A DNA stretch of 40,676 nucleotides, taken from positions 1 to 40,676 of the IMG/VR virus record IMGVR_UViG_3300022888_000017; one strand, given 5' to 3'. Of the stretch, positions 182-17,947 are shown one piece after another; the stretch's first letter is position 1, and each line of letters begins with the position of its first letter. The notes below the pieces were generated by a model. The model searched no databases and was not told the DNA's origin. It saw nothing but the letters and a program-made list of their open reading frames with translations. A program made the translations under genes and the position numbers. This stretch comes from a virus.

Positions 182-1249
182 ATGGGCGACATAACAATAA
201 ATGGAAAAAATGTAATAACTCAGTCAGGATCAGCTGAACCAGTATTGGCAAGCAATGTCACTGGTGGAGCGGGGTTAACTTTACAATACACAAATGCTAC
301 TTTTACTACTCCAACAATAGATTCGATAAAACTCACTCCCGGCACTGCTCCCGTCTCTCCAGCAGAAGGTCAGTTGTACTATAATGATGCTGATAATGTA
401 GTTAAAGTTTATAATGGGTCTACTTGGGATCAACTGAGTAACAAATTCTCAGCTACAGGTGGCACAGAATCAACGTACTCATCAGGTGGTGTTAATTACA
501 AAGTACATACATTTACCACATCAGGTACATTTACTGCTGATTCAGTAGGTGTTGTTGATGTTCTTGTAGTTGCCGGTGGTGGCGGAGGTGGTTGGGGAAC
601 CCATGGTGGAGCAGGCGGTGGAGCAGGCGGTATGCGAGTTACCGCAGGACATTCACTTACTGGTCAATCATATACAGTCACTATTGGTGCTGGTGGGGCA
701 AGCGCTACAGGCTCCGGCGACAGAGGTAATAATGGTGCAAATTCCGTATTTGGTTCAATCACATCACTAGGGGGTGGAGGTGCTGGTGTTTATGGTAGCC
801 TTAGAAATGGTCTCTCTGGTGGTTCTGGTGGCGGTGGTTCTGAGGCTTATCAAGCAGGCAATAGTGCTGGTGGTGCTGGTACTTCAGGTCAAGGTAATGC
901 TGGGGGAGGTTCAAACCAAACTTTTGGTGGTGGCGGTGGTGGTGGCGCTGGCGCTGCGGGAGCTGCTGCTGTAGCAACTAACATTGGTGGAGCTGGTGGT
1001 GTTGGCTTAACTAATTCTTACTCTGGTTCATCTCTTTACTATGCTGGCGGCGGTGGTGGTAATGGTGACTCTGGCGGTGGAGCTGGTGGTAATGGAGGTG
1101 GAGGTAACTCTGCTGGTAATAATGGTTTTTCAGCTGGTAATGGAGCAGACGGTTCTACAAATCGTGGTGGTGGTGGTGGTGCTTGTGGTGCTTCTGGTTC
1201 TCCGGGTGACGGCGGCTCAGGTATCGTAATCATTCGTTACGTAGTTTAA
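182..1249 (+). CDS. Glycine-rich tail-fibre adhesin
   Basis: A 355-residue fibre-type protein. Residues 1-90 are a linker region with a SNVTGGAGLTLQY motif and an EGQLYYND motif near residue 61 that recurs in the gene at 7260. From about residue 125 almost to the C-terminus it is extremely Gly-rich with runs of GGGGG, and it ends in GIVIIRYVV. Such domains fold as packed polyglycine-II helices in known phage receptor-binding tips (the T2/S16 gp38 type), so the inferred role is host surface recognition at a fibre tip. The MAHYAKV-family gene follows 11 bases later, and the same pairing occurs at 7260/8736. Exact fibre (long, short or accessory) is unknown. Confidence 0.8.
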   Translation: MGDITINGKNVITQSGSAEPVLASNVTGGAGLTLQYTNATFTTPTIDSIKLTPGTAPVSPAEGQLYYNDADNVVKVYNGSTWDQLSNKFSATGGTESTYSSGGVNYKVHTFTTSGTFTADSVGVVDVLVVAGGGGGGWGTHGGAGGGAGGMRVTAGHSLTGQSYTVTIGAGGASATGSGDRGNNGANSVFGSITSLGGGGAGVYGSLRNGLSGGSGGGGSEAYQAGNSAGGAGTSGQGNAGGGSNQTFGGGGGGGAGAAGAAAVATNIGGAGGVGLTNSYSGSSLYYAGGGGGNGDSGGGAGGNGGGGNSAGNNGFSAGNGADGSTNRGGGGGACGASGSPGDGGSGIVIIRYVV

Positions 1250-1260
1250 GGAGAACAAAT

Positions 1261-1608
1261 ATGGCACATTATGCAAAAGTAGAAAACACATTAGTAACAC
1301 AAGTAATAGTTGCAGAAGCTGAGTTTTTTGATACGTTTGTTGATTCAAGTCCTGGCGAGTGGATTCAAACTTCATATAACACACATGGTGGAGTGCATTC
1401 AGAAGGAGAAACACCTTTAAGAAAGAATTATGCTGGAGTAGGATTTACATACGATTCAGTTCGTGACGCTTTCATCGCACCTCAACCTTATCCATCTTGG
1501 ATATTAGTAGAAGATACTTGTCAATGGACAGCACCTGTTGCTTATCCTGATGATGAAAAACAATATTCTTGGAATGAAGAAACAGAAACTTGGGATGAGA
1601 TAGAATAA
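1261..1608 (+). CDS. Small fibre-partner protein, MAHYAKV family
   Basis: A 115-residue protein preceded by AAGGAG. It begins MAHYAKVENTLVTQV and has a conserved core (RKNYAGVGFTYDSVRDAFI, then PYPSWILVEDTCQW) and an acidic Trp-rich end. A paralogue at 8736 shares all these blocks. In my knowledge this family is common in marine T4-like phages next to fibre genes, but its biochemical function is not established. Both copies here follow glycine-rich adhesins directly, so an assembly factor or minor component of that fibre type is a reasonable inference. Its stop overlaps the ATG of the remnant at 1608 (TAATG). Confidence 0.75.
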   Translation: MAHYAKVENTLVTQVIVAEAEFFDTFVDSSPGEWIQTSYNTHGGVHSEGETPLRKNYAGVGFTYDSVRDAFIAPQPYPSWILVEDTCQWTAPVAYPDDEKQYSWNEETETWDEIE

Positions 1609-1661
1609 TGGCAAACTTATTAATTAAACCAACAACAGGATCAGGTATATGCCAAATTTAA
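1608..1661 (+). pseudogene. Remnant of a MANLxIKP-type fibre gene start
   Basis: A 17-codon frame, MANLLIKPTTGSGICQI, starts on the stop of the previous gene (TAATG). Its first eleven residues match the N-termini of the fibre genes at 4743 (MANLVIRPASGTG) and 5762 (MANMIIKPAADGN). It then runs into the start region of the C1q-type fibre gene and stops. The simplest reading is a recombination scar: the 5' end of an old fibre gene was left when a new fibre gene was joined on. It could alternatively act as a short translation-coupling leader. Confidence 0.65.
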
Positions 1662-2341
1662 AATTAGGAGGAATTACCGCACTTTCAGAATCGGGTGGAG
1701 TAGTAACTCTCCCTGCTGAAGTTATTGGTGGAACGGGTTTAACTACTACTAGTGTAAATGCCGCCAATATAACTGCTGGAGTTTTACCTGCTGATGTTAC
1801 AGGAGGTTCAGGACTTACGAGCCCATTACAAAAGGCTGGTGGTACTATGACTGGTACTATTGCCGGATTTACGAGTACGGGTATTGATGATAATGCTACG
1901 AGTACAGCTATGACTATTGATAATAGTAGTATAGTCACTATGCCTTATCAGCCTGCTTTTGACGTTTCTCGTGGATCTGAAGGTAGTGCTAACTTAACTG
2001 GGATAATATCACACCCTGTTACTTACATAGATAGAGGAAACGACCATAACGGCACTAGGTTTACCGCTCCTGTGACTGGAGTATATCACTTCTATACTTC
2101 TCATATTAAGAACGCTCCTGCTGTAACTGTAAATCGAAGGCGATTTCTGGTAAATGGTGCGGCAGCCTTAAATGGCAGACATCAAAGGCTAGATGAGACC
2201 GCCACTGGTTATAACGGCGCTGGTACATTTAGTATGCTAATAAGCCTCAGTGTCGGCGACTACATTGAAGTAGATCAGTGGGCAGGTGCTTCACATGGCA
2301 GTTGGGAATATGACTACTTTGGTGGCCACCTAGTAGGTTAA
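1649..2341 (+). CDS. Tail-fibre protein with C1q-like C-terminal domain
   Basis: A 230-residue fibre protein. Residues 1-95 carry array-typical linkers (AGVLPADVTGGSGLTSPLQK and an AGGTMTGTI motif). From about residue 104 the sequence looks like a C1q/TNF-like jelly roll: PAFDVSRG, then RFTAPVTGVYHFY, FLVNG, and a LSVGDYIEVDQW strand near the end. C1q-like domains trimerise and bind ligands, so this is probably a trimeric receptor-binding head. The ATG lies inside the remnant at 1608-1661, in another frame, with no strong Shine-Dalgarno of its own, so coupling to the remnant is possible. Confidence 0.78.
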   Translation: MPNLKLGGITALSESGGVVTLPAEVIGGTGLTTTSVNAANITAGVLPADVTGGSGLTSPLQKAGGTMTGTIAGFTSTGIDDNATSTAMTIDNSSIVTMPYQPAFDVSRGSEGSANLTGIISHPVTYIDRGNDHNGTRFTAPVTGVYHFYTSHIKNAPAVTVNRRRFLVNGAAALNGRHQRLDETATGYNGAGTFSMLISLSVGDYIEVDQWAGASHGSWEYDYFGGHLVG

Positions 2342-2361
2342 TTTTAAACAAAGGAGTAATT

Positions 2362-2619
2362 ATGACAACATACACAATAACACTAACAGATGCAGAAACT
2401 AAAGCAATGGAATATGTAGCAGTCTCAGTACAGGATTGGGCAGACAATGCCTTACAAAACAGAGCTAGAATTGCTATGGATGAAATATATGATATAGAAG
2501 TAGCTCGTATGACAGCAGACCCTACAATAACATCTATCCCAGCAGACAAAGAAGCAGTGGTACTAGCAGCAGACATTAAGAGTGTGGCAGTACGAAATGC
2601 AGAAACTGAAGATGAATAA
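2362..2619 (+). CDS. Small fibre-array protein, MTTYTITLTDAE family
   Basis: An 85-residue protein with AAAGGAG upstream of its ATG. It begins TYTITLTDAETKAMEYVAV followed by VQDWADNALQNRARIAMDEI, then an acidic Ala-rich end. Similar small proteins are familiar from marine phage fibre regions but have no assigned function that I know. It occupies the partner position after the C1q fibre. It is probably helical and soluble, with no signal peptide or membrane segment. Treat it as a hypothetical fibre-linked protein. Confidence 0.65.
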   Translation: MTTYTITLTDAETKAMEYVAVSVQDWADNALQNRARIAMDEIYDIEVARMTADPTITSIPADKEAVVLAADIKSVAVRNAETEDE

Positions 2620-2633
2620 AGGATAAAGTATAA

Positions 2634-3323
2634 ATGGGAAATTTGATTATAAAAGGAAAAGGCGGAGCTGGTAATAAACTGATACTACAGGATCAGGCTG
2701 GTGGAGCAGTAATCACTACTGGTGACTCTGGAGCCACTATGGCTAGTAATGTTACTGGTATTCCAGCGGCAGGAGTTACTGGAGTATTACCTGTTGGAGT
2801 TACAGGTGGTTCTGGATTGACTGCACTAGGGACTGTTGCTTCAGGGACTATTGGAAGTGGAGTTACAATGCCTGCTGGTAGTGTAATTCAAACTAAGTTT
2901 GTAAACTCTAATGCCGACATCGGTGTTATTGGTCACGCCTCTCCATGGCATCTTTCTGCACTTGATATTACATTAACAACTAAATCGGCTAGTAGTATAT
3001 TCATCATTGCCGCACAATATTCAGCTGACGATACCAATTCATCCTCATTTGGTGTAGGTATTGGTGTATATGTTACAGGTGCTGCTATTACTGATGAATA
3101 TTGGTTATATCCAGCGGCACATGAAGATTACCAAAGTGGCGGCGGCGATTCATACATGGTAGCAAGACATACTACTGCATTTGCGCCAGGATATGCCGCT
3201 GGAATCACATTCACTATCAGAGTATACGGTAGATTTAATAACAGTAATGGTCAGAGATTTCTTGGTAATGGCGGTCCATACTATGCCCAAAGACATCTGG
3301 TGCAGGAGATACAAAATGTTTAA
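2634..3323 (+). CDS. Tail-fibre protein with variable C-terminal knob
   Basis: A 229-residue protein. The N-terminus (MGNLIIKGKGGAGNKLILQD, then QAGGAV) is related to the genes at 4743 and 5762. Residues 37-80 are the shared linker (SNVTGIPAAGVTGVLPVGVT, GGSGLTALGTVASGT). The knob starts at the GSVIQTKF strand near residue 82 and ends with HLVQEIQNV, an ending shared with other knobs in the array (VQEIAA, IEEIML). A receptor-binding fibre tip is inferred from context. Its last codons overlap the next gene's start. Confidence 0.75.
   Translation: MGNLIIKGKGGAGNKLILQDQAGGAVITTGDSGATMASNVTGIPAAGVTGVLPVGVTGGSGLTALGTVASGTIGSGVTMPAGSVIQTKFVNSNADIGVIGHASPWHLSALDITLTTKSASSIFIIAAQYSADDTNSSSFGVGIGVYVTGAAITDEYWLYPAAHEDYQSGGGDSYMVARHTTAFAPGYAAGITFTIRVYGRFNNSNGQRFLGNGGPYYAQRHLVQEIQNV
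2745..2793 (+). repeat. 49-nt exact direct repeat in fibre linkers (copy 1)
   Basis: The stretch encoding the SNVTGIPAAGVTGVLP linker is identical, base for base, to 4854-4902 in the fibre gene at 4743. Flanking bases differ, including synonymous changes, so the perfect identity looks like recent gene conversion or a kept crossover site. Confidence 0.8.
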
Positions 3324-3624
3324 TCAAAAACAAATAGATAATATTCAATTTACGGTTGTCAGAGATTTATTTCCTACAGGTGAATTTCAAATAATGAATG
3401 ATATTGTAACCTTTATAGATGATAATGTTATGTCGTCTGAAATGTATGATGACAGAAAGGCTGAGATATTGGCTGAGTATGCTGGATTAGAGTACTCACG
3501 TAACCGGAAAGCAGAATATGATGCCTTGAATCAATTTGAGTTGATATCTGATGATGAAGCAAACGGCACAACAACTCACAAAGATGCAATTGCAGCAATT
3601 AAAACTAAATACCCAAAGGTATAA
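3316..3624 (+). CDS. Small fibre-partner protein, KYPK family
   Basis: A 102-residue protein. I chose the ATG at 3316 because GGAG lies just upstream and it overlaps the preceding stop by a few bases, a coupling style used repeatedly here; a longer frame from 3181 would overlap the fibre gene by 140 bases. The N-terminal half is unique. The C-terminal half carries the family block: EYSRNRKAEYDALNQFELIS, NGTTTHKDAIAAIKTKYPKV. Similar tails (YP..DQLD...KYPK) end many small phage proteins encoded beside fibre genes. A fibre assembly or chaperone role is inferred. Confidence 0.7.
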   Translation: MFNQKQIDNIQFTVVRDLFPTGEFQIMNDIVTFIDDNVMSSEMYDDRKAEILAEYAGLEYSRNRKAEYDALNQFELISDDEANGTTTHKDAIAAIKTKYPKV

Positions 3625-3634
3625 ACTATGGCAA
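3594..3634 (+). repeat. 41-nt exact repeat spanning a gene junction (copy 1)
   Basis: The segment covering the last AIKTKYPKV codons, the TAA, and the start of the next fibre gene (ATGGCAA) is identical to 5728-5768. A diverged version sits at 4704-4748. The repeat is placed exactly where a crossover would swap whole fibre cassettes without disturbing either reading frame. Confidence 0.8.
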
Positions 3635-4470
3635 CTATAAAATTAAATAATGTATCTATCGCCACGGAGACTGCAGGCGCTGCTGCTTTGACTGTGCCAT
3701 CCATACAACAAACTGATGCTCAAAATATTTCAGGAACTAAAGCATCACATGAAATGTTTATGGGTAAAACGTTTACTCTTACAGGAGATTTGACGGTTAA
3801 TGATAATCTAGTTTTTGCAAATCTTACTGGGGGTGGAGCAGATATTACCATTACAGATGATGGAAATGGAAGAACAATAACTACAGGTAGTGCGGGTACA
3901 TTAGAAGGTGGTGAATTTTTAGGAACTGTGCCACCAGAAACGGATATAAGCACGATGACATCGGGGGCTATTGCGAGTGCTATTACAAACAATGCAGGAG
4001 TTGCTTCAGGGGCTATAGCAGCTGGGGTTACGTTTCCTGCTGGTCATGTAATTCAAATAGTAAGCTCTCGGCCCGCTAATTATTCTTCTACAACCGCTTA
4101 TAGTAGTGCTAGTTTAGTACCATGTGCTCAACAATCTATTACAACAAAACAGGCCAATTCTTCATTTCTTATTCATTGGAATGCCGAGCATACAAGAAGT
4201 GTTGCTGGTAGAAGTCAATTTTTAATGGCAGATAGCTATACTGCTGGCACATCTAACTATAGTACGGGAAATTATTTCTTTTATTCTCACTATGGGTGGT
4301 ATCACAGTGCTGGTGGTGGAAACTTTATAACTTCTTATTCATATCATGATAAATCCCAAACCCTTGCAGCCGGAGCAAGTATTACATTTTATGTTTTCCT
4401 TGGGCCAATTGGTTCAGCAACAGATGGAGCAAACCATCAAGATATACAAGTACAGGAGATAGCGGCATGA
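3628..4470 (+). CDS. Tail-fibre protein with variable C-terminal knob
   Basis: A 280-residue protein. It begins MATIKLNNVSIATETAGAAA, then has a beta-repeat shaft (TLTGDLTVNDNLVFANLTGG) and a short linker GAIAAGVTFPAGHVIQIVSS that leads into the knob at about residue 135. The C-terminus ends DIQVQEIAA, as in the neighbouring knobs. The unusually Ser/Tyr/His-rich knob (SYSYHDKS region) suggests a surface-binding head. Start and stop overlap neighbours closely: 3 bases after the previous stop and a 4-base ATGA overlap with the next gene. Confidence 0.75.
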   Translation: MATIKLNNVSIATETAGAAALTVPSIQQTDAQNISGTKASHEMFMGKTFTLTGDLTVNDNLVFANLTGGGADITITDDGNGRTITTGSAGTLEGGEFLGTVPPETDISTMTSGAIASAITNNAGVASGAIAAGVTFPAGHVIQIVSSRPANYSSTTAYSSASLVPCAQQSITTKQANSSFLIHWNAEHTRSVAGRSQFLMADSYTAGTSNYSTGNYFFYSHYGWYHSAGGGNFITSYSYHDKSQTLAAGASITFYVFLGPIGSATDGANHQDIQVQEIAA

Positions 4471-4736
4471 GTATTCCACAGGCATTAGAATCATTACGGC
4501 CGGGTGCAGAATGGACGCTTATAGGTGATACCTTAACTTGGTCAGATATAAGTCAAACAGAACCAACTACGGCTGAAATAAATGCGGAGGTAGATCGATT
4601 AGAATATTCCAGAAAACGTAAAGAAGAATATGATGCTTTGAACCAATTTGAAATGCAATATGATGATAAAGCAAATGGTACGACTACATGGGAAGACGCG
4701 ATTGCAGCAATTAAAACGAAATACCCAAAGGGATAA
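4467..4736 (+). CDS. Small fibre-partner protein, KYPK family
   Basis: An 89-residue protein starting at the ATGA overlap with the preceding fibre, with AGGAGAT just upstream. The C-terminal 45 residues repeat the family block: EYSRKRKEEYDALNQFEMQY, then NGTTTWEDAIAAIKTKYPKG. The N-terminal part (ALESLRPGAEWTLIGDTLTW) resembles the one at 10096 (ALLSLEPDSVFVVRGEEIEW), suggesting a two-part protein with a variable first half and a constant tail. A role in folding or attaching the upstream fibre is inferred from invariant gene order only. Confidence 0.7.
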   Translation: MSIPQALESLRPGAEWTLIGDTLTWSDISQTEPTTAEINAEVDRLEYSRKRKEEYDALNQFEMQYDDKANGTTTWEDAIAAIKTKYPKG

Positions 4737-4742: not shown

Positions 4743-5468
4743 ATGGCAAATTTAGTAATACGACCAGCATCAGGAACGGGTAACAAAGTAGTAGTACAAG
4801 ATCAGGCAGGTGGGGCAGTCCTGACTACTGCTGATTCTGGGGCAACTATGGCAAGTAATGTTACTGGTATTCCAGCGGCAGGAGTTACTGGAGTATTACC
4901 TGCTGCAGTAACAGGTGGATCAGGATTGACTGCACTAGGGACTGTTGCTTCAGGAACTTTAGGAAGTGGAGTTACTTTTCCATCAGGATGTGTCATTGGT
5001 GGTGCTATGTTAGAAAGGTTTCAGGTCACTAGTTATGTTCAGACAACTTCAACTTCCTTCGTAGATACAGGAATATGGGGGAGTTATACTCCTATAAAAT
5101 CTTCAAGTGTAACACGTTTAAAAATTCATTTTCACGTTGGTTTTTCACAAGCACAAAATTATCTTACTTACCACACGTGTGGAATGGATAGTATTAATTC
5201 AACAACTTACGCCTCTGCTACTAGCTTAGATGATAGTGCTTATAATCACAGAAATATCGCTACTGCTGATAGAACTTATCACAGTACTTGGGATTTTATA
5301 CAAACTACTAGTGGAAGAGTGTCGGCTATTTTCCCGTCCTCTATAACTTCCTACTCTGCTGGTACTCCTTATTATTTCAGACTATATTATAAGACAGCGG
5401 GGGGCATCTTTTATTTTGGTCACATCCACACACAACTAGCCTTTTGGATAGAGGAGATAATGTTATGA
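4743..5468 (+). CDS. Tail-fibre protein with variable C-terminal knob
   Basis: A 241-residue protein beginning MANLVIRPASGTGNKVVVQD with the AGGAVLTTADSGATMASNV linker. The linker to residue 80 is nearly the same as in the gene at 2634. The knob begins at about residue 82 (SGCVIGGAMLERFQVTS) and contains a TSTSFVDTGIWGSYTPIKSS region of the type found in phage tip domains (an aromatic strand followed by 'sitp.s.ssk'). It ends FWIEEIML. It is likely a receptor-binding fibre. Confidence 0.75.
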   Translation: MANLVIRPASGTGNKVVVQDQAGGAVLTTADSGATMASNVTGIPAAGVTGVLPAAVTGGSGLTALGTVASGTLGSGVTFPSGCVIGGAMLERFQVTSYVQTTSTSFVDTGIWGSYTPIKSSSVTRLKIHFHVGFSQAQNYLTYHTCGMDSINSTTYASATSLDDSAYNHRNIATADRTYHSTWDFIQTTSGRVSAIFPSSITSYSAGTPYYFRLYYKTAGGIFYFGHIHTQLAFWIEEIML

Positions 5469-5758
5469 TATTAGATAAATTTCAAGCTATTGTGTCACTA
5501 GTTGGTGGTGGAGTATCACAGATAGCAGATGGGACTATAAATTATCACGATGGACAATCTCAACCAACAGAAGCAGAAATAGATGCCGAAATAATTAGGC
5601 TTCAAGCAGAATGGGACGATCAAGCCTATGCCAGAAAACGGAAAGTAGAATATGATGCCTTGAACCAACTTGAATTGATGTCTGATGATGCTATCAATGG
5701 CACTACAACTCACAAAGACGCAATTGTAGCAATTAAAACTAAATACCCAAAGGTATAA
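5465..5758 (+). CDS. Small fibre-partner protein, KYPK family
   Basis: A 97-residue protein. The start at 5465 makes an ATGA overlap with the upstream stop and has GAGGAG nearby; a start at 5444 is possible but overlaps more. The tail block is present: YARKRKVEYDALNQLELMSD, NGTTTHKDAIVAIKTKYPKV. The first half (MILDKFQAIVSLVGGGVSQI) is unlike other copies. The last codons and stop lie in the 41-nt junction repeat shared with 3594-3634. Confidence 0.7.
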   Translation: MILDKFQAIVSLVGGGVSQIADGTINYHDGQSQPTEAEIDAEIIRLQAEWDDQAYARKRKVEYDALNQLELMSDDAINGTTTHKDAIVAIKTKYPKV

Positions 5759-5761: not shown

Positions 5762-6079
5762 ATGGCAAACATGATAATTAAACCCGCAGCAGACGGTAAT
5801 TTACTTATACAGGATAGGGCGGGGGGTGCTGTTTTGTCAACTAGTACTTCTGGGGCAACTATTGCTAATGTTACACTCTCAGATGATGTCCTTCCTGTGA
5901 CTGATGATACATATGACTTAGGATCAGCAGCAAAGAGATGGCAAAACATTTACACTACTGACTTACATCTTCAAAATGAAAGAGGAAACTGGACAGTTAT
6001 TGAGGAAGAGAACTATCTAACACTAAGAAATAACAAGACTGACAAAGTTTACAAGCTGGTTATGGAGGAAATAGAATAA
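5762..6079 (+). CDS. Short fibre-like structural protein with DLGS...RW and NERG motifs
   Basis: A 105-residue protein. The N-terminus MANMIIKPAADGNLLIQDRA matches the fibre family at 4743. It then has the shaft motif TYDLGSAAKRWQNIYTTDLH, followed by LQNERGNWTVIEEENYLTLR and KTDKVYKLVMEEIE. The latter block is a common ending in marine phage structural proteins, so this is probably a complete short protein and not a truncation, although it lacks a knob. Its TAATG overlaps the next gene, a glycine-rich adhesin, which could be its partner. Confidence 0.65.
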   Translation: MANMIIKPAADGNLLIQDRAGGAVLSTSTSGATIANVTLSDDVLPVTDDTYDLGSAAKRWQNIYTTDLHLQNERGNWTVIEEENYLTLRNNKTDKVYKLVMEEIE

Positions 6080-6945
6080 TGGCACTAATAAGCGCTCAGA
6101 GTTCGGGTACGATTAATACGACTACTAATTATTCTTATACTGGTTCAGACCAGACATTTACTGTTCCGGCTGGTATTACTATAATAAGAGTATATTTGTG
6201 GGGAGCTGGAGCCGGTGCTGGTTATAGCTCCGCGACCCCAGCCAGCAAAGGAGGCGGAGGCGGTTTTACTTTTGGAGATATTAAAGTAACTCCGGCCGAG
6301 ACAATGTGTGTTATGGTTGGTGGAAGAGGAACAAGTGGTTCATCTGCTATGACATATGGTAATGGAGGAGGAGCATCTGGATCTCATAATTCTAGTTCAG
6401 GTGCAGGCCGTTCTGCTATTTTCAGAGGCGGCAATTCAACTACTCTTGCTAACGAATTAGCGACCGCCGGAGGAGGCGGAGGTGGTGGTGAAGGAGGAGA
6501 TGATGGTACAGCCGGAGCAGGAGGCGGTACGACAGGACAACCCGCGTCTTATGATACGTATCGGGTCTCGCATACTTCCGATGTTTATGGTAGTCATCCT
6601 ATAGGTGCCGGTGGAGGAACACAAGAGAGTAAAGGGACTCATACCGGAAATGCTAATGGTGATTTAGGTGGAGATCGATGTCGAGGAGGCCATGGAGCAA
6701 GTACACCCGCTTCCGGCGGAGGCGGTGGAGGTTACTATGGCGGTGCCGATGGAAGACAAGATAAAGGTGGAGGCGGTGGTTCTGGATATACAGGAGGAAT
6801 GATATGGGGTGTAACTGAAATGGGTTACTACGATGTTCCGGCCGGAGCTAAACATCCATTGCATCCCGGAGCTGCAATTGGATGGGGGTCTTCATCTGGT
6901 GGGGCTGGCCACGGATATCATGGCTACGTAGTTGTACAATACTGA
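6079..6945 (+). CDS. Glycine-rich tail-fibre adhesin (short N-terminus)
   Basis: A 288-residue protein with almost no shaft. After the first 25 residues it enters a glycine-rich adhesin domain at QTFTVPAGITIIRVYLWGAG, and it ends HGYHGYVVVQY. The opening strand, GGGGGG runs and terminal VVVQY match the general plan of the adhesins at 182 and 7260, but the sequence is clearly distinct and is paired with an LRDLP-tail partner (6955) instead of a MAHYAKV protein. Lack of a shaft suggests it caps another fibre, perhaps the short one encoded just before it. Confidence 0.75.
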   Translation: MALISAQSSGTINTTTNYSYTGSDQTFTVPAGITIIRVYLWGAGAGAGYSSATPASKGGGGGFTFGDIKVTPAETMCVMVGGRGTSGSSAMTYGNGGGASGSHNSSSGAGRSAIFRGGNSTTLANELATAGGGGGGGEGGDDGTAGAGGGTTGQPASYDTYRVSHTSDVYGSHPIGAGGGTQESKGTHTGNANGDLGGDRCRGGHGASTPASGGGGGGYYGGADGRQDKGGGGGSGYTGGMIWGVTEMGYYDVPAGAKHPLHPGAAIGWGSSSGGAGHGYHGYVVVQY

Positions 6946-10947: not shown

Positions 10948-10971
10948 ATGGAAACTAGGGGAATAAACTAA
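10948..10971 (+). other. Seven-residue upstream mini-cistron
   Basis: ATG at 10948 follows a good Shine-Dalgarno (AAAAGGATAAA) and encodes METRGIN before a TAA whose last A is the first base of the next gene's ATG (TAATG). The same ribosome site sequence precedes the gene at 6955. It may be a translation-coupling leader or another remnant of a lost gene start. Confidence 0.4.
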
Positions 10972-12683
10972 TGACAGCAAATGTAGCCTTGACGGACACT
11001 TTTGATCAATGGCGGGTCAAAGATAATGAACTTATTATAATGACTCAGCCAAGTGGAATGAATAATTTTATCAAAGTTCTTGATACGGCTAATTCTACCA
11101 CAAATACCTCTGGTTCTATAATCACCGCAGGTGGATTGGGTGTAGCTAAATCGGTAAATATAGGAGAAAACTTAAAAGTTTGGGGTAATATTATATGTGT
11201 AGGAGATACTACTGTACATGGAAACCTTGTATTTGGTGATGCCACAACAGATATTGTATCTTTTGAAGCTGATATTAATACAGACATAATTCCAAATGCT
11301 ACCCTTCTCTTTAATTTAGGTAATACAACTCAATACTGGGCTAATACCTTTACAGGTCATATTACTGCCGCTCAAAGCGCTACTTCAGGTAAACCAGCTC
11401 TCACTATTGAAGCATTAGATGTTGACCAAATAGCAGTAGACGTAAATGCCTCGACCCAAACGGCTAATGCTGTAGATATTTCTGCTGACGCAATTACTTC
11501 TGGAACAGCATTTAAACTTTCTTGTGGTGCTATCACCTCAGGTGTAATGATGGATCTTGTTAGTGCAGCAACAATTACAGGAACTGGTCTTAATGTCGCA
11601 TTAGATTCATTAACTACTGGTAAAGTTGTGAATATCTCCGCAGATGGACTTACTTCAGGTACAGCACTTTCCATTGATTCTAATTCAGCGGATCCGCAAG
11701 CAAGACATCTAGTAAGTATAATTAATGATAACTCAGCAGCATCTGGTGCAATTCCAATTTATGTACGACAAGATGGTGTTGCCCCCGCGGGAAAATTTGC
11801 TGGAACCACTTCTCTTGTAGTACCAGCCGGTACTGCATCGAATAGAGGTACTGGAGTTCAAGGTGGAATTCGATTCAATACACTGTATAATTATTTTGAA
11901 GGATATACTGGAGCAATTTGGACGCAATTTGGAAGACTAGAAGATGTTGATGAGGATACATGGATACGAGCCGAAACCACTGCTGGAGCAGATAATGATG
12001 ATTTAGTTTTCACTACTGCTGGTACTCAAAGAATGATGATAGACCAAGCTGGTCAGGTAACCATGGACGCACCTGGAACAGCTACAGGTAATCTAGATAT
12101 TCTTTCTCTTACAAATACCATTAATCATGCATCCATGGCTGGAACAGAAACATCTATCTTATGGAATCAATGGTATAATGATGGAACTCCCGCTACAGCA
12201 GATTCAGGTAGAATTTCTGTAGGAACTGAAACCAATTGGACTGCCGCTGTTGGAACACATGATTCTTATATGGCATTTGAAACTTGCTTGAATGGTTACG
12301 TAACAGAACGTATGCGTATTGAAGGTGGGGGAGATGTTGGTATAGGCACAACTAACCCTACAACAGCATTAACCGTAAACGGTACTATTACAGAATTGTC
12401 TTCTAGAACACTTAAGACAAATATTACTAATATGGAACCTATGCTCCCAGCTATTTTACAGATGCAAGGTGTTAAATATGACCGCAAAGACCCAACAAAA
12501 GGTGAAAATGTTTATGGGTTTATCGCAGAAGACGTAGATAAAATTCTTCCTAATTTGGTATCTCATGACAAGGACGGTAATGCTGCTGGTATTCAATATA
12601 CTAAAATGGCCGCCGTTCTCTTAGAAGCTATTAAAGAGCAACAAGTCCAAATAGAAGAATTGAAATCTAAATTATTAAACTAA
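10971..12683 (+). CDS. Tail-fibre protein with C-terminal peptidase-S74 intramolecular chaperone
   Basis: A 570-residue fibre. The N-terminal 110 residues contain GSIITAGGLGVAKSVNIGEN, then come several ITSGTAFKLSCGAITSGVMM-type shaft repeats and a VGIGTTNPTTALTVNG motif near residue 460. The last 95 residues are an S74 domain: ELSSRTLKTNITNMEPML with the expected Ser near 478 and Lys near 482, VYGFIAEDVDKILPNLV, and YTKMAAVLLEAIKEQQ. In characterised fibres and endosialidases this domain trimerises the shaft and cleaves itself off next to the Ser. The mature fibre would therefore lose about the last 93 residues. Confidence 0.85.
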   Translation: MTANVALTDTFDQWRVKDNELIIMTQPSGMNNFIKVLDTANSTTNTSGSIITAGGLGVAKSVNIGENLKVWGNIICVGDTTVHGNLVFGDATTDIVSFEADINTDIIPNATLLFNLGNTTQYWANTFTGHITAAQSATSGKPALTIEALDVDQIAVDVNASTQTANAVDISADAITSGTAFKLSCGAITSGVMMDLVSAATITGTGLNVALDSLTTGKVVNISADGLTSGTALSIDSNSADPQARHLVSIINDNSAASGAIPIYVRQDGVAPAGKFAGTTSLVVPAGTASNRGTGVQGGIRFNTLYNYFEGYTGAIWTQFGRLEDVDEDTWIRAETTAGADNDDLVFTTAGTQRMMIDQAGQVTMDAPGTATGNLDILSLTNTINHASMAGTETSILWNQWYNDGTPATADSGRISVGTETNWTAAVGTHDSYMAFETCLNGYVTERMRIEGGGDVGIGTTNPTTALTVNGTITELSSRTLKTNITNMEPMLPAILQMQGVKYDRKDPTKGENVYGFIAEDVDKILPNLVSHDKDGNAAGIQYTKMAAVLLEAIKEQQVQIEELKSKLLN

Positions 12684-12698: not shown

Positions 12699-13523
12699 AT
12701 GACAAGAGCTCGATACTTAGCGGATTTCAAACAAGATGATGGCACAGGCTATGCCACTAAATACGCCACAGGATTCTCCCCCCAATTTTCAGGTACACCC
12801 ACAGGTATTAGTGCTTCTCATATAACTACTGGAGTATTACCTGTTGGAGTTACTGGTGGTTCAGGTCTGGATGAGTTAGCAAATGATGTTGAAATTAACA
12901 CCTCTGGAGCAATCACTACTACTGGTGCTTTTACTTCGATAGGCATAGATGATAATTCAAATGCTCTTGCTTTGACCATTGATTCCTCTGGTCATACTAC
13001 TCCGGGTGCTGATAATACACAAGATCTTGGATCTGCCTCAAAAAGATGGGGACCAGTTCATGGTAAATATTTCGCAAGTACTCCTATTTATTCTGGTGCA
13101 GCTACAGGGTTTGCTAGTGGAGCAGCAGCAAACGCTTATCACGATATTACTGTTGCTGACTTCGGTAGCATGGGTGGTGGACAATGTTGGCTGGTCAAAA
13201 TGAGTTGGATGAACCATAATACTACTTATGGTTATACTGTTCAAGCAATGGCAATAATAACTTCGAATGGGCCAAACACACACAATATTCATTATCAGGG
13301 GAACGTACACTGGCAGAGAACGACTCTCGGGGATAATGGGGGAAGTTTTAATGGAATTATATGTACCCATGCTGTTCACACATCTTCAAGTGCTCTGACA
13401 GTTAATATGATGATCTCAGAAGAACAGAATGGTGCAACGTATCCACCTCTTGCCTTACATGTTAAAACAAATGCTGCTCCAACCACTACTCCACAAATAA
13501 GTATATGGCGAATGATAACATAA
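12699..13523 (+). CDS. Tail-fibre protein with variable C-terminal knob
   Basis: A 274-residue protein beginning MTRARYLADFKQDDGTGYAT. Its linker (FSGTPTGISASHITTGVLPV, GVTGGSG) is shared with the genes at 15048 and 16809. A shaft motif NTQDLGSASKRWGPVHGKYF (about residue 108) matches the one at 5762. The remainder is a Gly/His/Met-rich knob ending TTTPQISIWRMIT. Receptor binding is inferred from position and modular structure. Confidence 0.72.
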   Translation: MTRARYLADFKQDDGTGYATKYATGFSPQFSGTPTGISASHITTGVLPVGVTGGSGLDELANDVEINTSGAITTTGAFTSIGIDDNSNALALTIDSSGHTTPGADNTQDLGSASKRWGPVHGKYFASTPIYSGAATGFASGAAANAYHDITVADFGSMGGGQCWLVKMSWMNHNTTYGYTVQAMAIITSNGPNTHNIHYQGNVHWQRTTLGDNGGSFNGIICTHAVHTSSSALTVNMMISEEQNGATYPPLALHVKTNAAPTTTPQISIWRMIT

Positions 13524-13536: not shown

Positions 13537-13851
13537 ATGACTATAAACAGCATTGATATACAAAATGACAGAATAAGTTTAGTAGTCCATCTTGATGATG
13601 AAGCGGATTTGTTTTTTGAAGTTTCACGTGTGAGCGATGGTTCAGCAAAATGGCAAAGGATACAATCTTGGCTTGATATGGGAAATGAGATATCAGATAG
13701 ACTGGATTATTCTCTGTATTATTCAGACATGAGAAAAAACGAGTATGCCGAACTAAACCAAGATGAAATGCGTTACGATGACTTAAAGAATAATACCAAT
13801 ACTTGGGAACTAGCTATTGATGCTATCAAAGCTAAATATCCAAAACCATAA
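13537..13851 (+). CDS. Small fibre-partner protein, KYPK family
   Basis: A 104-residue protein with AAAAGG upstream. The first half (MTINSIDIQNDRISLVVHLD) is unique and the tail is the family block: YSDMRKNEYAELNQDEMRYD, NNTNTWELAIDAIKAKYPKP. It follows a variable-knob fibre, as the other members do. Fibre assembly is inferred. Confidence 0.7.
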   Translation: MTINSIDIQNDRISLVVHLDDEADLFFEVSRVSDGSAKWQRIQSWLDMGNEISDRLDYSLYYSDMRKNEYAELNQDEMRYDDLKNNTNTWELAIDAIKAKYPKP

Positions 13852-13863: not shown

Positions 13864-14592
13864 ATGACTAGAGCAAGAGATAGAGCAAGTGGAGCTAATT
13901 TAACTTCATTAGGTATAACTGCAACTACAGCACAATTGAATAAGATGGCTACTGTAACTGCGAGTGCGGAAGACCTGAATAAAATGGATGGAATGACTTC
14001 AACTAAGACAGAATTACAATTACTGACTGGAAAAACCGCTATCGGACATGTTGATGGAGATAACCCAAATTTTGGGAATATGGTAGGTCAAATCGGAGCT
14101 TTCGGACAATCTACTGCTCCCACAGGTTGGTTAATTTGTGATGGTAGTACTCTAAACGGTGTAGCTGGTGGGTTATATGCAAACCTATGGAGCAAGATTG
14201 GAACTACTTACGGGGGTTCTGGACAAACAAGTTTTTTCTTACCAGATTTACGTGGAGAATTTTGCCGTGGGTTTGATGATGGTCGAGGTATAGATTCTGG
14301 AAGAGCAATAGCATCTACACAAACAGATACACTTAAACAAAGTTGGTATGGTGGTACTCGTTTTCAAGCACATTATCATACTGGTGGTTGGGGTAGTGGA
14401 ATGAAAAACTGGCAGATTAAACATTCTGGTTATCCTAATAATTACGGCGCAGCTGAAACAACAAACGCATTTATTGCTCCTTGGTATCAGATAAGTAATG
14501 GTATTGGTTATAATAGTATGCAACTTAAAGTCGGGGAATCTAGTGAAACAAGAGTACGTAATGTAGCAGTACGATATTGTATTAAATATTAA
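13864..14592 (+). CDS. Tail-collar-domain fibre protein
   Basis: A 242-residue protein. The start MTRARDRASGANLTSLGITA is followed by coiled repeats ATTAQLNKMATVTASAEDLN and STKTELQLLTG. Residues about 80-150 form a phage tail-collar domain: GQIGAFGQSTAPTGWLICDG, YANLWSKIGTTYGGSGQTSF and FLPDLRGEFCRGFDDGRGID. Collar domains occur in T4 gp12 short tail fibres and in many fibre tips. The C-terminal TRVRNVAVRYCIKY ending also fits that family. It may be the gp12-equivalent short fibre, but it is much shorter than T4 gp12, so an accessory fibre is equally possible. Confidence 0.82.
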   Translation: MTRARDRASGANLTSLGITATTAQLNKMATVTASAEDLNKMDGMTSTKTELQLLTGKTAIGHVDGDNPNFGNMVGQIGAFGQSTAPTGWLICDGSTLNGVAGGLYANLWSKIGTTYGGSGQTSFFLPDLRGEFCRGFDDGRGIDSGRAIASTQTDTLKQSWYGGTRFQAHYHTGGWGSGMKNWQIKHSGYPNNYGAAETTNAFIAPWYQISNGIGYNSMQLKVGESSETRVRNVAVRYCIKY

Positions 14593-14600: not shown

Positions 14601-15038
14601 ATGAAAGTCTGGAATTCACATAACGCAATGCCAAGAGAACCACAACCCAATCCAGAATTTCCTGGTACATTTTTATATCGGGAAGATGATGTAAAAACAC
14701 CTCCACCTGAATTTGATGTTAATATTTCAATATGTCAATGGAATGGAAGTGTATGGATTATTAGTAATAAACTTGAAACTGAAACGATAAATGGGGTTGA
14801 GGTTGAAGTAGATAGAGATGATAATCCAGCCCCATTAACAGCAATAGAACAGTTATGGGGTGAACGCCAACAAAAATTTCAAGAAATGGAAGTCCATGGG
14901 GCTGGATTACAAGATAGACCGTTTACACAAGCTGAATTAGATTATAGACAAGAACTACGAGATTTACCTGAAAACTCCACACCTTCATTAAATGAAAATG
15001 GAGGACTAATTGGTGTTACTTGGCCCACAAAACCATAA
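14601..15038 (+). CDS. Tail-fibre assembly chaperone-like protein (LRDLP/WPTKP tail)
   Basis: A 145-residue protein with AAAGGG upstream. The N-terminal half (WNSHNAMPREPQPNPEFPGT, FDVNISICQWNGSVWIIS) is proline- and Trp-rich. The C-terminal part carries QAELDYRQELRDLPENSTPS and GVTWPTKP, the same chaperone-family ending as at 6955. It follows the collar-domain fibre. A fold-assisting role for that fibre is inferred from family and neighbour. Confidence 0.75.
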   Translation: MKVWNSHNAMPREPQPNPEFPGTFLYREDDVKTPPPEFDVNISICQWNGSVWIISNKLETETINGVEVEVDRDDNPAPLTAIEQLWGERQQKFQEMEVHGAGLQDRPFTQAELDYRQELRDLPENSTPSLNENGGLIGVTWPTKP

Positions 15039-15047
15039 AGGAATAAC

Positions 15048-15097
15048 ATGAGTAAAGCCCGAAATATGGCGTCATTTAAACGTAGTGACGGTACACT
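15048..15097 (+). repeat. 50-nt exact direct repeat at fibre gene starts (copy 1)
   Basis: The first 50 coding bases are identical to 16809-16858, and a second near-identical block follows in the FSGTPTGISA linker. The genes share this base and differ entirely in their C-terminal heads. Confidence 0.85.
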
Positions 15098-16499
15098 GAA
15101 TTCGGACACCTATGCTAGAAAAGCTTCGCCATCATTTTCAGGTACACCCACAGGTATTAGTGCGACACATATAACTACTGGAGTATTACCTGTTGGGGTA
15201 ACTGGTGGTTCAGGACTTACAGATCCATTACAAAAGACTGGTGGTGCAATGACTGGTGCAATTACCACTAACTCAACTTTTGATGGAGTAGATATTGCTA
15301 CGAGGGATGCCGTCTTGACTTCAACTACAGCTACCGCAGGTGCCGCTCTACCTAAAGCTGGTGGTGCAATGACAGGCAATATTACAAGTGCATCTGATTT
15401 ATCTTTAGATGTAGAAGGTGATATAACTTTAACTGCACTTTCAGATATTATTCATCAATCAACATCTACAAATTCAACAGCAGGACATCATATCTTTAAA
15501 TCTTATAACACAGAAATTATGAGGATTGATGGATTGCAGAATAGAGTAGGCATCGGGGATTCTACACCTAATGATAAGTTGCAAGTTGCAGGTACAATTA
15601 CTTCTCAACACGATATAGGTTCTGATACAGTCTATAACCTATTTTCTGCAAGAAGTTCTCGAACCAATAATGATTATGGTGGTTTAGATAAGCAGTATAT
15701 GCAGATGAACTTTGCGACTCCGGGTCCTAATACTAATGGTGAGAGTAATCAACACGGATATGGTGATTTAAGATTTGCTTTTGTTGATGGCTACGATACT
15801 ACATTTCATGATAGAGTTACATTCCAAGCTAAAGGCAATGTCGGCATCCGGACAGTGGATCCTGATGCTGTTCTTGAGATACGAGGCCAAAACGAAGCCA
15901 CTGGGAGTAGTTCTCATGGTGCCGAAGAACCTATAACAATGATTAGAGGTGCTAATGGGTCTACTGTTCAAGAATGGGTTCATGCTACAAAACACACAAC
16001 TTCCGGATACGTTTCCAACACTACGAATTATTCATGGTATAAACTTTTTTCGCCCGGAGGATATTCTAGTGCGGGAAGCCCAGGATTTTGGGACATTACT
16101 TGTCATATAAGTGGAAATCATGCGACAGCGGGAGCAATTCAAAAGTTTTATCTTTTACAATCGAATAATCACTCAGGCGTTGGCAGTCATGGTGGTGCAA
16201 ATTACTCAGTTTGTAAAAGATATTGTGATATGAATACAGGTGGTGGAGCATATAGTGCTTCAATAACTGCAACTCCATATTATCTTAGTAGTGGTAGTGG
16301 TAACAACAATGCTACATTTTTCTTTAAATGTGTTCATACTGCTAGAGAACCTCAATTTACTTTTTATGCAAAATATATTGGTTGTACTGGATCAACTGCT
16401 GGAGCCTATGAACAGTCTGTATCATTCTTAGGAACTGCAATAAATAATAATCATCAACCGGCTAATATATCTACAGTAGCACTTACCACTTATCATTAA
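15048..16499 (+). CDS. Long tail-fibre protein with VGIG shaft motifs and variable knob
   Basis: A 483-residue fibre starting MSKARNMASFKRSDGTLNSD. It has the FSGTPTGISATHITTGVLPV linker, two KAGGAMTG motifs, and shaft motifs NRVGIGDSTPNDKLQVAGTI and NVGIRTVDPDAVLEIRG that normally lead into fibre ends or S74 domains. No S74 catalytic block is present; instead a unique 190-residue Ser/Gly/Tyr-rich C-terminal domain ends NISTVALTTYH. It is probably a receptor-binding fibre. Confidence 0.75.
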   Translation: MSKARNMASFKRSDGTLNSDTYARKASPSFSGTPTGISATHITTGVLPVGVTGGSGLTDPLQKTGGAMTGAITTNSTFDGVDIATRDAVLTSTTATAGAALPKAGGAMTGNITSASDLSLDVEGDITLTALSDIIHQSTSTNSTAGHHIFKSYNTEIMRIDGLQNRVGIGDSTPNDKLQVAGTITSQHDIGSDTVYNLFSARSSRTNNDYGGLDKQYMQMNFATPGPNTNGESNQHGYGDLRFAFVDGYDTTFHDRVTFQAKGNVGIRTVDPDAVLEIRGQNEATGSSSHGAEEPITMIRGANGSTVQEWVHATKHTTSGYVSNTTNYSWYKLFSPGGYSSAGSPGFWDITCHISGNHATAGAIQKFYLLQSNNHSGVGSHGGANYSVCKRYCDMNTGGGAYSASITATPYYLSSGSGNNNATFFFKCVHTAREPQFTFYAKYIGCTGSTAGAYEQSVSFLGTAINNNHQPANISTVALTTYH

Positions 16500-16509
16500 G
16501 GGCATTCTA

Positions 16510-16743
16510 ATGGAAATTTATATGGAATACAAAAAATCAGATATGTCTATTACTGGTTTTGTTTTTGAAGATAATACACATTATGAAGAAACAGATACAC
16601 ACAATATTTCAACTAACAAGATTGAATGGTTAGAAGAAAAAACAGTTGAAGATATGACCCTGATAAAAACTTATGAGGATGTTATGGATACAATAAATAA
16701 CACACATCAAGTAAGTGAATTAGGGGTAGTAAGTAAACCTTAA
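16510..16743 (+). CDS. Small acidic protein of unknown function
   Basis: A 77-residue acidic protein (MEIYMEYKKSDMSITGFVFE; many Glu, Asp and Thr). It occupies the partner-gene position after a fibre but lacks both the KYPK and LRDLP tails. A remnant encoding a KYPKPE tail lies immediately after its stop in another frame, so this gene may have displaced, or lost, that tail. No signal peptide or membrane segment is visible, and I do not recognise a family. Confidence 0.5.
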   Translation: MEIYMEYKKSDMSITGFVFEDNTHYEETDTHNISTNKIEWLEEKTVEDMTLIKTYEDVMDTINNTHQVSELGVVSKP

Positions 16744-16749
16744 AACACG

Positions 16750-16794
16750 ATGACAGTTCAAGCTATAAAAAATAAATACCCAAAACCTGAATAA
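16750..16794 (+). pseudogene. Remnant of a KYPK-family partner gene 3' end
   Basis: A 14-codon frame, MTVQAIKNKYPKPE, matches the AIKxKYPKP ending of the partner family almost exactly and carries nothing else. It sits between an unrelated small gene and a fibre gene start. A 15-base string around its stop (AAACCTGAATAATAT) recurs at 17960-17974 after the last partner gene. This looks like the leftover 3' end of a replaced gene. Confidence 0.65.
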
Positions 16795-16808
16795 TATAGA
16801 GATAGAGC

Positions 16809-17684
16809 ATGAGTAAAGCCCGAAATATGGCGTCATTTAAACGTAGTGACGGTACACTTGATGACAACATCTATTCTAGAAAAGCTTCGCCATCATTTTC
16901 AGGTACACCCACAGGTATTAGTGCTTCTCATATAACTACTGGAGTACTACCTGTTGGAGTAACAGGAGGGTCTGGATTGACTGCTCTAGGAATAATTGGT
17001 TCTGGTACTTTATCAAGTGGTGTTACAGGTGGATCAGGATTGAACGCATTAAGTGCTTCTAATTTATCTGCTGGAACAGTACCTGATGCTAGGTTTCCTT
17101 CAACTCTACCTGCGGCTAGTGGCGCAAATCTTACCGCTTTACCTGCGGCTAATATTACAGGAGAGCTACCTGTTGGAGTAACAGGAGGGTCTGGATTGAA
17201 TGCATTAAGTACTACCAAATCAGATGTAGGATTAGGTAATGTAGAAAATACTGCATTATCTACATGGAGTGGATCAACTAATTTAGTTACTATCGGCCGA
17301 CTGACTTCCGAGATAAAAACAGCGAATCATGTTTATGGAACTGACTGGTATAATCATGGAAGTGGAGGTGGATCAGACATATATTTAAGAACCCCTATTG
17401 TACATAATGAAAGTAATATGTTTAATATTGAGGTATTATCATATGAATATGGGGGATCTTATGCTGGTTCTTATATGTTTGGTGCATATGCTTATGGTGG
17501 TAGCACTATGATTAGTGTTAGAACTACTACAATACATGGCCGTAGTATTTCCATGGGGGTTACTAATAATAAAATTTGGTGTAGAATAAATGGAGGAGCC
17601 GGATATTATAACCATTATTGTTTTCGCTATCACGGATGGCAAGCTAAAGATAATTCCGGTTTTTCATGGGGGAACTCAGCATGA
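16809..17684 (+). CDS. Tail-fibre protein with variable C-terminal knob
   Basis: A 291-residue protein that starts like 15048 (MSKARNMASFKRSDGTLDDN). The middle is an expanded linker with repeated GELPVGVTGGSGLNALS-type units and a TKSDVGLGNVENTALSTW motif, which is common in phage fibres. The knob from about residue 160 is Tyr/Gly/His-rich and ends DNSGFSWGNSA. It is the last fibre before the neck genes. Confidence 0.75.
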   Translation: MSKARNMASFKRSDGTLDDNIYSRKASPSFSGTPTGISASHITTGVLPVGVTGGSGLTALGIIGSGTLSSGVTGGSGLNALSASNLSAGTVPDARFPSTLPAASGANLTALPAANITGELPVGVTGGSGLNALSTTKSDVGLGNVENTALSTWSGSTNLVTIGRLTSEIKTANHVYGTDWYNHGSGGGSDIYLRTPIVHNESNMFNIEVLSYEYGGSYAGSYMFGAYAYGGSTMISVRTTTIHGRSISMGVTNNKIWCRINGGAGYYNHYCFRYHGWQAKDNSGFSWGNSA

Positions 17685-17947
17685 ATAATCTACCTGAACC
17701 TAATCCAGATATAATTCTAAAAATAGAAGAAGCTAATAAATGGAAAAATGATAGACTGAATACTTATGAATTATGGAATAATCAATTAGATAAACTATGG
17801 CATGATATAGACAATGGAACATTAGATAAAAATGGTGAATGGTATAAAGCAATAAAACAAATAAAAGAAGATAACCCTAAACCGGTTAACTTAGAAGAAT
17901 TACAAGAAGAAATTGAAGAGATGATTACTGCAGAACGGGAAGCTTAA
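17681..17947 (+). CDS. Small fibre-partner protein, diverged KYPK family
   Basis: An 88-residue protein. I chose ATG 17681, which overlaps the previous stop as ATGA; a start 15 bases earlier is possible. It has a diverged form of the partner tail: WKNDRLNTYELWNNQLDKLW followed by WYKAIKQIKEDNPKP, then an added acidic helix (LEELQEEIEEMITAEREA). The NQLDKLW block matches the DQLD core known from phage homologues. It ends the fibre array. Confidence 0.68.
   Translation: MNNLPEPNPDIILKIEEANKWKNDRLNTYELWNNQLDKLWHDIDNGTLDKNGEWYKAIKQIKEDNPKPVNLEELQEEIEEMITAEREA

Follow-up and report, generated by a model that had tools for sequence, protein, structure and literature searches.

The window analysed here is IMG/VR record IMGVR_UViG_3300022888_000017, positions 1 to 40,676 (40,676 nucleotides), of which 182-17947 is taken up by a fibre-gene array. 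An initial annotation described about 15 fibre genes in a row over nearly 18 kb, most with a small gene right behind, and this description holds: the stretch carries 15 fibre-type ORFs (F1-F5, F6a, F6b and F7-F14) and 12 small partner ORFs of 77-145 aa (p1-p8 and p11-p14), all on the + strand. The exceptions are F9 and F10, which have no partner of their own, and F6a, which has p6 in common with F6b. The array lies directly upstream of T4-type neck genes; its left end is cut by the end of the contig, so the 18 kb is a minimum and the array may be longer. Partner genes start from 8 bp before to 20 bp after the end of the fibre gene. Six partners are of the phrog_9114 type, two of the phrog_7759 type and two of the PF16778 type, with p2 and p13 outside these.

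At the left, F1 (182..1249) has a glycine-rich head (Gly_rich_2, PF21722, E 2.6e-16) and a phrog_7759-type partner (p1, 1261..1608; E 1.2e-32). A scar at 1609..1648 (repeat D13), reading MANLLIKPTTGSG, is the out-of-frame start of another fibre gene. F2 (1649..2341) has a C1q-like head below the cut-off (PF00386, 20.5 bits versus 23.7); its partner p2 (2362..2619) belongs to no family. Three knob-headed fibres follow, each with a phrog_9114-type partner: F3 (2634..3323) with p3 (3316..3624, start corrected to 3316; assigned by profile, mosaic against the relative L085), F4 (3628..4470) with p4 (4467..4736; E 1e-15), and F5 (4743..5468) with p5 (5465..5758, start corrected to 5465; E 1.2e-13). 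F6a (5762..6079) is a short fibre stem whose C-terminal type is found again in L084-L087 and L093; it overlaps by 1 bp F6b (6079..6945), a separate glycine-rich tip of the ALK/LTK type (ALK_LTK_GRD, PF12810, E 6.8e-13), and the two are followed by p6 (6955..7242), a tail assembly chaperone (PF16778, 59.9 bits; cut-off 26.6). F7 (7260..8726) is again glycine-rich (Gly_rich_2, PF21722, E 1.3e-10) with a phrog_7759-type partner (p7, 8736..9125; E 7.1e-35). The T4-type late promoter motif TATAAATA (9166..9173) stands ahead of F8 (9177..10091), a knob-headed fibre with a phrog_9114-type partner (p8, 10096..10413; E 1.5e-21).

Two more such motifs (10420..10436) lie ahead of F9 (10482..10922), a short fibre-like backbone gene kept in L082, L084-L088, L090 and L091. 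F10 (10971..12683) is a backbone fibre with a built-in S74 chaperone (Peptidase_S74, PF13884, E 1e-10). Cassettes then resume with F11 (12699..13523), whose knob head is 64% identical in L082, and p11 (13537..13851; phrog_9114, E 6.5e-6); F12 (13864..14592), with a collar head (Collar, PF07484, E 1.5e-17), and p12 (14601..15038), of tail assembly chaperone type at 22.4 bits, below the PF16778 cut-off of 26.6; and F13 (15048..16499), which has its base in common with F11 and F14, and p13 (16510..16743; phrog_22828, E 5e-4). A second scar (16757..16793; repeat D10), reading IQAIKNKYPKPE*, preserves the 3' end of a phrog_9114 partner that has been lost. Knob-headed F14 (16809..17684) and p14 (17681..17947; phrog_9114, E 1.3e-12) close the array. 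Beyond them lie a fossil (17974..18046), the 3' end of a gene for a membrane protein, which the near-strain L094/L174 has intact; another TATAAATA (18060..18067); the backbone gene X18 (18108..18449; phrog_1084, E 6.5e-19, and the fibre-assembly-like phrog_3304, E 1.3e-12); and the bounding neck and tail genes gp13, gp14 and gp3 (18449..21273; phrog_211, PF11649 and phrog_227), with profile matches placing gp13 at 18449 and gp14 at 19469.

The N-terminal bases and linkers said to be common to these fibres are real at the DNA level, at about 80-95% identity, and between heads of the knob class almost no similarity is detectable. Among the named heads, profiles bear out glycine-rich, S74 and collar; only the C1q assignment falls short.

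One way to understand such an array is that all cassettes are made together, giving each particle a dozen or more tips that read many receptors at once, with swapping as the usual drift of fibre genes. All the ORFs are intact and co-directional, with bases and ribosome-binding sites (a Shine-Dalgarno match of at least 4 nt in 23 of 27 array genes), and the only TATAAATA copies within the array precede F8 and F9, which points to long transcripts common to several genes. The motif is not enriched overall, and its + strand copies are intergenic in 7 of 7 cases; sigma-70 promoters and terminators are no more frequent than in shuffled sequence. A precedent is RaK2, whose long tail fibres comprise nine fibre proteins (PMC10253068). 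Several fibres, however, have nearly the same base (79% identity between F3 and F5 and 78% between F7 and F8, each over 85 aa), so that one docking site would be contested. We give this reading a little less than an even chance; it is compatible with the explanation preferred below.

Partner genes as putative fibre chaperones

The partners most plausibly act as chaperones in fibre folding. Sequence comparison indicates chaperone homology for the PF16778 type, with p6 above and p12 below the cut-off, and for the phrog_9114 type, which aligns with a PF16778-type profile (hhalign 95.3%, P 2.4e-8) while its members in the window lack a direct Pfam match. The XkdW profile (PF09636) matches 10 of 57 phrog_9114 members, p8 itself not among them; the best structural match of the p8 model (pLDDT 91) is XkdW (2hg7, Z 4.5, over the first half). 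Phrog_7759, p2 and p13 may also have chaperone activity, p2 and p13 being assigned as partners by position only. The p7 model (pLDDT 92) consists largely of beta structure and has a single helix (33-44); part of it fits chain a of Pam3 7ypx (162 residues, the chaperone gp25; residues 3-57) at Z 6.2 and rmsd 1.6, and the Mu fibre-chaperone complex 5yvq_B matches at Z 2.6, these being the only chains among 124 to reach Z 2. The structural links of p7 and p8 come from follow-up comparisons by VIA-align, whose Z values are modest (6.2 and 4.5); Foldseek against the PDB gave no significant match for either. BFVD matches to p7 at significant E are uncharacterised phage proteins only, and phrog_7759 matched nothing among Pfam and PDB sequences. 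Its annotation reads "unknown function". As the p7 model is without the C-terminal helical trimerisation domain, a Tfa-type trait, we do not place phrog_7759 in the Tfa family and propose only that it works in a Tfa-like way. In Pam3, residues 1-55 of gp25 grip the glycine-rich fibre (PMC9608196).

The class of the head is linked to the class of the partner. A glycine-rich ORF lies upstream of the phrog_7759 partner in 74 of 79 dereplicated cases, as against 0/74 for phrog_9114 partners, 1/29 for APC and 70/1482 for other ORFs (74/79 versus 1/103 for other types; Fisher p 1e-43). S74 fibres carry their own built-in, removable chaperone, and none of 35 S74 fibre genes has such a partner. The class rule is not perfect, because p6, of the PF16778 type, serves a glycine-rich tip.

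An alternative, which we think unlikely, supposes that each partner is no chaperone but a stable component of the virion, serving its fibre as a tip cap or co-receptor. Specificity for the head class would suit such a role; homology to assembly chaperones argues against it, as does the lack of partners beside the self-chaperoned S74 fibres. Known chaperones fall on both sides: those of Mu and Ur-lambda stay attached to the mature virion, according to work cited by PMC9608196, whereas Pam3 gp25 is missing from virions (PMC9608196).

Cassette exchange among relatives

Relatives do not carry the same genes in a fixed order with normal divergence; units move and vary. Two units located downstream of F10 in the window, F11-p11 and F12-p12, are found upstream of F9 elsewhere: the first in L082, the second in L085/L087, where p12 moves together with the F12 head. 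The slot from F10 to X18 holds 0 to 4 units, depending on the relative. The backbone (F9, the S74 fibre, X18 and gp13) is kept; cassettes are gained, lost and moved between slots. Even L094/L174, at 96% identity, differs by a whole cassette: F14 matches to about 17030 and differs beyond, with the other break at 17974. The first part of p3 is 98.7% identical to L085, with a sharp fall after; dS is 0.03 in this front half versus 0.80 in gp13 of the same two phages, about 27-fold lower.

Gain, loss and relocation of cassettes, recombination boundaries and fossils are all evident in the sequence, and the scars and fossils mark past swaps. The swapped unit is the fibre head plus the front half of the chaperone. 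The pattern of identity across base, head, partner front and partner tail comes from the six knob cassettes in the window; some partner-front similarity (z 6-8) is present in 3 of 15 pairs of these. The F3 head has dN/dS 0.81 (0.47-1.56), against 0.17 for gp13; as this is not above 1, diversifying selection is not claimed.

Bases and chaperone tails fall into paralogue groups, as expected if tandem duplication took place long ago, the copies diverged in the ordinary way and phages now exchange little, and the long shared bases could reflect such duplication instead of present recombination sites. Heads within a group are unrelated, however, while bases are up to 79% identical; the dS contrast between p3 and gp13, the relocated cassettes and the fossils also speak against it. 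It is contradicted for F3-p3, F11, F12 and F14, and may yet apply to F2, F4 and F13, cassettes that have no relatives; as an account of the array it is very improbable. Least probable, by a small step, is a silent archive, most cassettes being unexpressed and acting as donors, through gene conversion or inversion, to a single expressed locus: repeated bases and joints offer the homology, but the heads are not copies of each other, a base, a start and usually a Shine-Dalgarno site are present in each cassette, inverted repeats were not found, and neither was resolvase or reverse transcriptase in this fragment or seven related records, so that on the intact genes and ribosome-binding sites we reject it. 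The proposal of a store of interchangeable cassettes is accordingly supported at the population level, where cassettes are relocated, gained and lost, and unsupported as regards a silent store. An invertible cassette of the Mu/P1 type is rejected as well (0 inverted repeat pairs of at least 24 nt; no DNA invertase/resolvase, PF00239, in this fragment of an incomplete genome), and diversification by reverse transcriptase seems unlikely (no PF00078 in this or seven related records, most of them fragments).

The explanation we favour, with good confidence, is that this is a marine T4-like myophage whose host-recognition cluster takes the form of a tandem array of fibre and chaperone cassettes that are swapped as a block. 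Each cassette would consist of a fibre gene, with conserved base and variable receptor-binding head, then a chaperone that folds and trimerises that head; such plug-in cassettes would be interspersed with a fixed backbone (F9, the self-chaperoned F10, X18 and the neck genes). It is the partner genes that make swapping workable. The two segments that vary, the head of the fibre and the front half of the chaperone, sit side by side on the DNA between conserved stretches: the fibre base at the left; the chaperone tail, the junction and the next fibre base at the right. Recombination in these flanks between co-infecting phages, presumably homologous or homeologous, would replace tip and matching chaperone in one step. 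All cassettes are probably expressed, and the heads may bind different host receptors.

A more specific version, put forward tentatively, makes the array expressed and recombination-ready: fibres with the same base would compete for docking sites, particles would carry differing mixtures of at least 12 tips, chaperones would be head-specific, phrog_7759 would represent a new family of chaperones devoted to glycine-rich adhesins, and the junctions, each formed by a chaperone tail and the following fibre base, would be exchange points at which tip and chaperone pass jointly between unrelated marine phages.

Known systems and host-range evolution

The array is a host-recognition cluster of known kind, in an unusually large, chaperone-matched variant: it adjoins gp13/gp14 and is hypervariable between relatives, with conserved flanks. 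The clusters of pelagimyophages and cyanomyophages, in the accessible part of their description (PMC7029224), are likewise hypervariable fibre-rich islands directly upstream of T4-type neck genes, differing among relatives. That part lists fibre genes, glycosyltransferases and other genes, with no account of fibres paired with chaperones, of partners matched to heads or of boundaries of swaps; it places VrlC at the upstream border, whereas the window's contig begins inside the array, without VrlC. The Melnitz OM43 myophages (MZ577095-98, PMC9004378), whose gp23 is 63% identical to that of the window phage, also alternate fibre and small genes, and their partners include the phrog_7759 and PF16778 types; counted over the three profiled types, there are four partners in the stretch compared and six in the whole record, against ten in the window, and the paper does not discuss the layout. 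In Alteromonas phages V22 and A5, fibre and cognate chaperone move jointly between unrelated phages; there is one pair per phage, with DUF4376 chaperones that resemble S74-type intramolecular chaperones and no tandem array (PMC10579305, PMC7289586). Pam3 gp24-gp25 (PDB 7YPX, PMC9608196) is a single pair, a glycine-rich fibre with a chaperone of its own. The beta-sandwich of gp25 seems similar to the opening part of p7; the helical C-terminal trimerisation domain of gp25 is missing from the p7 model. Klebsiella phage RaK2 has about ten fibre genes per genome, mostly encoding depolymerase spikes and shown jointly on the particle (PMC10253068). In the literature searched, which covered few subscription journals, no direct precedent turned up for arrays of fibre and chaperone genes in cyanophages or pelagiphages.

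The host-recognition regions of marine phages are large and hypervariable, with many genes of no known function. Many of the small genes there, among them phrog_7759 with no match in Pfam, would gain a testable role as fibre chaperones matched to heads, and a rule is offered for pairing a fibre with its chaperone. A tip could be swapped without losing its folding helper because both variable segments lie next to each other, with conserved sequence to either side. This would be a simple route to changing which bacteria a virus can recognise, and the host-range evolution of abundant ocean phages would become readable from sequence.

Layout and setting of the fibre array

Fifteen fibre-type ORFs (F1-F14, with F6 divided into F6a and F6b) and 12 small partner ORFs (p1-p8 and p11-p14), every one on the + strand, occupy 182-17947 of the window, a 40,676-bp viral fragment; this extent is a lower bound, as the contig begins inside the array. 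Each partner starts between -8 and +20 bp relative to the end of its fibre gene. On its right the array is followed by T4-type genes arranged as in T4 (gp13, gp14, gp3, terminase large subunit, sheath); additional ORFs in the window are read, by position and sequence, as small terminase, tube, portal, protease, scaffold and capsid. The window's gp23 is closest to that of Pelagibacter phage HTVC008M (64%), then to OM43 phages Melnitz (63%), and no phage record compared with the window was close at the DNA level; together these mark a new lineage inside the marine T4-like group.

The T4-type late motif, TATAAATA, has seven + strand copies, all of them intergenic in a window with an intergenic share of only 4.9%. 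Inside the array it precedes F8 and F9 only; the next copy precedes the backbone gene X18. Shine-Dalgarno matches are found in 23 of the 27 array genes, and with the motif placement they suggest that the cassettes (fibre gene plus partner) are carried on shared late transcripts rather than lying silent.

Heads are diverse: Gly_rich_2 in F1 and F7, ALK-type glycine-rich in F6b, S74 in F10, Collar in F12 and, at a score below cut-off, C1q-like in F2; there are also knobs with no assigned family. F6a, a short stem, and F6b, a separate tip, overlap by one base, an arrangement recalling T4-like phages in which the gp38 adhesin caps gp37. Bases fall into groups: F3/F5 (79% identity, 85 aa), F7/F8 (78%, 85 aa) and F11/F13/F14 (57-68%, 60-83 aa, for pairs with F11). 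Within F9, a stretch of about 110 bp is duplicated (10638-10903, 72% identity).

G+C is about 0.35-0.48 in the array (1-17000) versus about 0.28-0.40 over 18000-40000; the higher value may stem from glycine codons or reflect foreign origin. An inserted stretch at about residues 64-151 of gp13 (18449-19462) also matches phrog_708 (baseplate wedge family) and phrog_22827, and may be a decoration domain common to several structural genes. Between the terminase and sheath genes, an opposite-strand ORF (23347-23826, -), at the same place in related record L174 (12925-13404), looks by motif like an HNH-type homing endonuclease, with no Pfam match. A second tail-tube-like gene (32725-33192; PF06841 23.3 bits, below cut-off) directly follows the capsid gene.

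Partner families and the heads they follow

Two of the three profiled partner families, phrog_9114 (p3, p4, p5, p8, p11, p14) and phrog_7759 (p1, p7), are annotated 'unknown function'; the third, PF16778, includes p6 (59.9 bits, cut-off 26.6), and p12 scores below its cut-off. In profile-profile comparison phrog_9114 aligns to the PF16778 type (probability 95.3%, P 2.4e-8); XkdW (PF09636) is matched by 10 of 57 phrog_9114 members and is the top structural match (Z 4.5) of the predicted p8 model (pLDDT 91). For phrog_7759 there is no sequence match in Pfam or PDB. Among 124 chains compared with the predicted p7 model (pLDDT 92), just two reach Z 2, each of them a fibre-chaperone entry. The better one, at Z 6.2 (rmsd 1.6 over 55, residues 3-57 of the chain), is 7ypx chain a, from the Pam3 gp24-gp25 complex (PMC9608196); the other is 5yvq_B (Z 2.6). 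Foldseek with the partner models returned nothing significant; therefore, the likeness of the p7 model to fibre chaperones supports, rather than proves, the predicted chaperone role of phrog_7759.

Partners also occur in other phages. Pelagibacter phage Greip (L193, 34.9-kb genome) has a phrog_7759 gene at 421-783, 81% identical in DNA to part of p7 and adjoining a DNA stabilization protein gene. In Prochlorococcus phage P-SSP7 (L198, 1074-3794) a phrog_9114 partner lies between several short tail-fibre genes; small versions of the array thus occur in podoviruses.

Linkage of head to partner was scored on the ORF directly 5' of each partner (312 sequences from the window and fetched loci, dereplicated at 90%), a head counting as glycine-rich with at least 30% G across 60 residues within the last 250. 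Such a stretch is present in 74 of the 79 ORFs preceding phrog_7759 partners, in 0/74 preceding phrog_9114 partners, in 1/29 preceding PF16778-type partners, and in 70 of 1482 other ORFs. A phrog_7759 partner is absent behind many glycine-rich ORFs, so the rule runs one way only: partner class predicts head class, not the reverse. The window holds an exception, as F6b is glycine-rich, yet p6 belongs to PF16778. None of 35 S74 genes is directly followed by any of the three partner types. S74 is an intramolecular chaperone, which external fibre chaperones resemble (PMC10579305); the self-folding fibre is the one without a helper.

Cassette exchange and its boundaries

Relatives with gp13 at about 70-85% identity keep the order F9, F10, X18, gp13, and the cassettes vary. 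F11-p11 lies 3' of F10 in the window and 5' of F9 in L082; F12-p12 lies 3' of F10 in the window and 5' of F9 in L085 and L087. The F10-X18 slot is empty in L003, L082, L084, L090, L091 and others. L085 has one glycine-rich/phrog_7759 unit there, L086-L088 have other genes, and the window has four cassettes. The near-strain L094/L174 is 96% identical to the window over 17974-20684 and 92% over 16793-17031; its fibre has a different head, and beyond that fibre come about 6.5 kb of other genes, among them those for a methyltransferase, a 2OG-oxygenase and a DUF401 membrane protein. Intergenic 17974-18046 of the window is what is left of the DUF401 gene, its 3' end, so the window descends from an L094-like arrangement. 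Other scars are an out-of-frame fibre start (1609-1648) and the end of a lost partner (16757-16793).

Among the six knob cassettes of the window, heads look unrelated (identity 16-26%, z at most 3.1), and so do the front halves of the partners, with z under 3 for 12 of the 15 pairs. Conservation is seen in the bases within a group (up to 79%) and in the partner tails (28-76%). Between phages the pattern is reversed: matching cassettes have head and partner front half in common. For F3-p3 and L085, DNA identity is 98.7% in the partner front half and drops sharply beyond it; dS between the same two phages is 0.03 for the p3 front half and 0.80 for gp13. DNA repeats span partner tail, junction and next fibre base (e.g. 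3502-3647 with 5636-5782, 87%). As read from sequence, the variable parts (tip and partner front) adjoin and the conserved parts lie outside them, so that tip and helper could be replaced together. A single exchange, presumably by homologous recombination, would then swap a fibre tip along with its matching predicted chaperone.

Known systems and what the array adds

Pelagimyophages and cyanomyophages have a hypervariable host recognition cluster at the array's genomic place (PMC7029224); the array shares both location and hypervariability with it. Fibre-chaperone pairs transfer between Alteromonas phages (PMC10579305), and RaK2 has about ten fibre proteins within one adsorption complex (PMC10253068). 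Melnitz has the same alternating layout of fibre and small genes, which the Melnitz paper does not discuss. New here are the size of the array, the rule linking head class to partner class, the proposed chaperone function, as predicted, for phrog_7759, and the matched swap boundaries.
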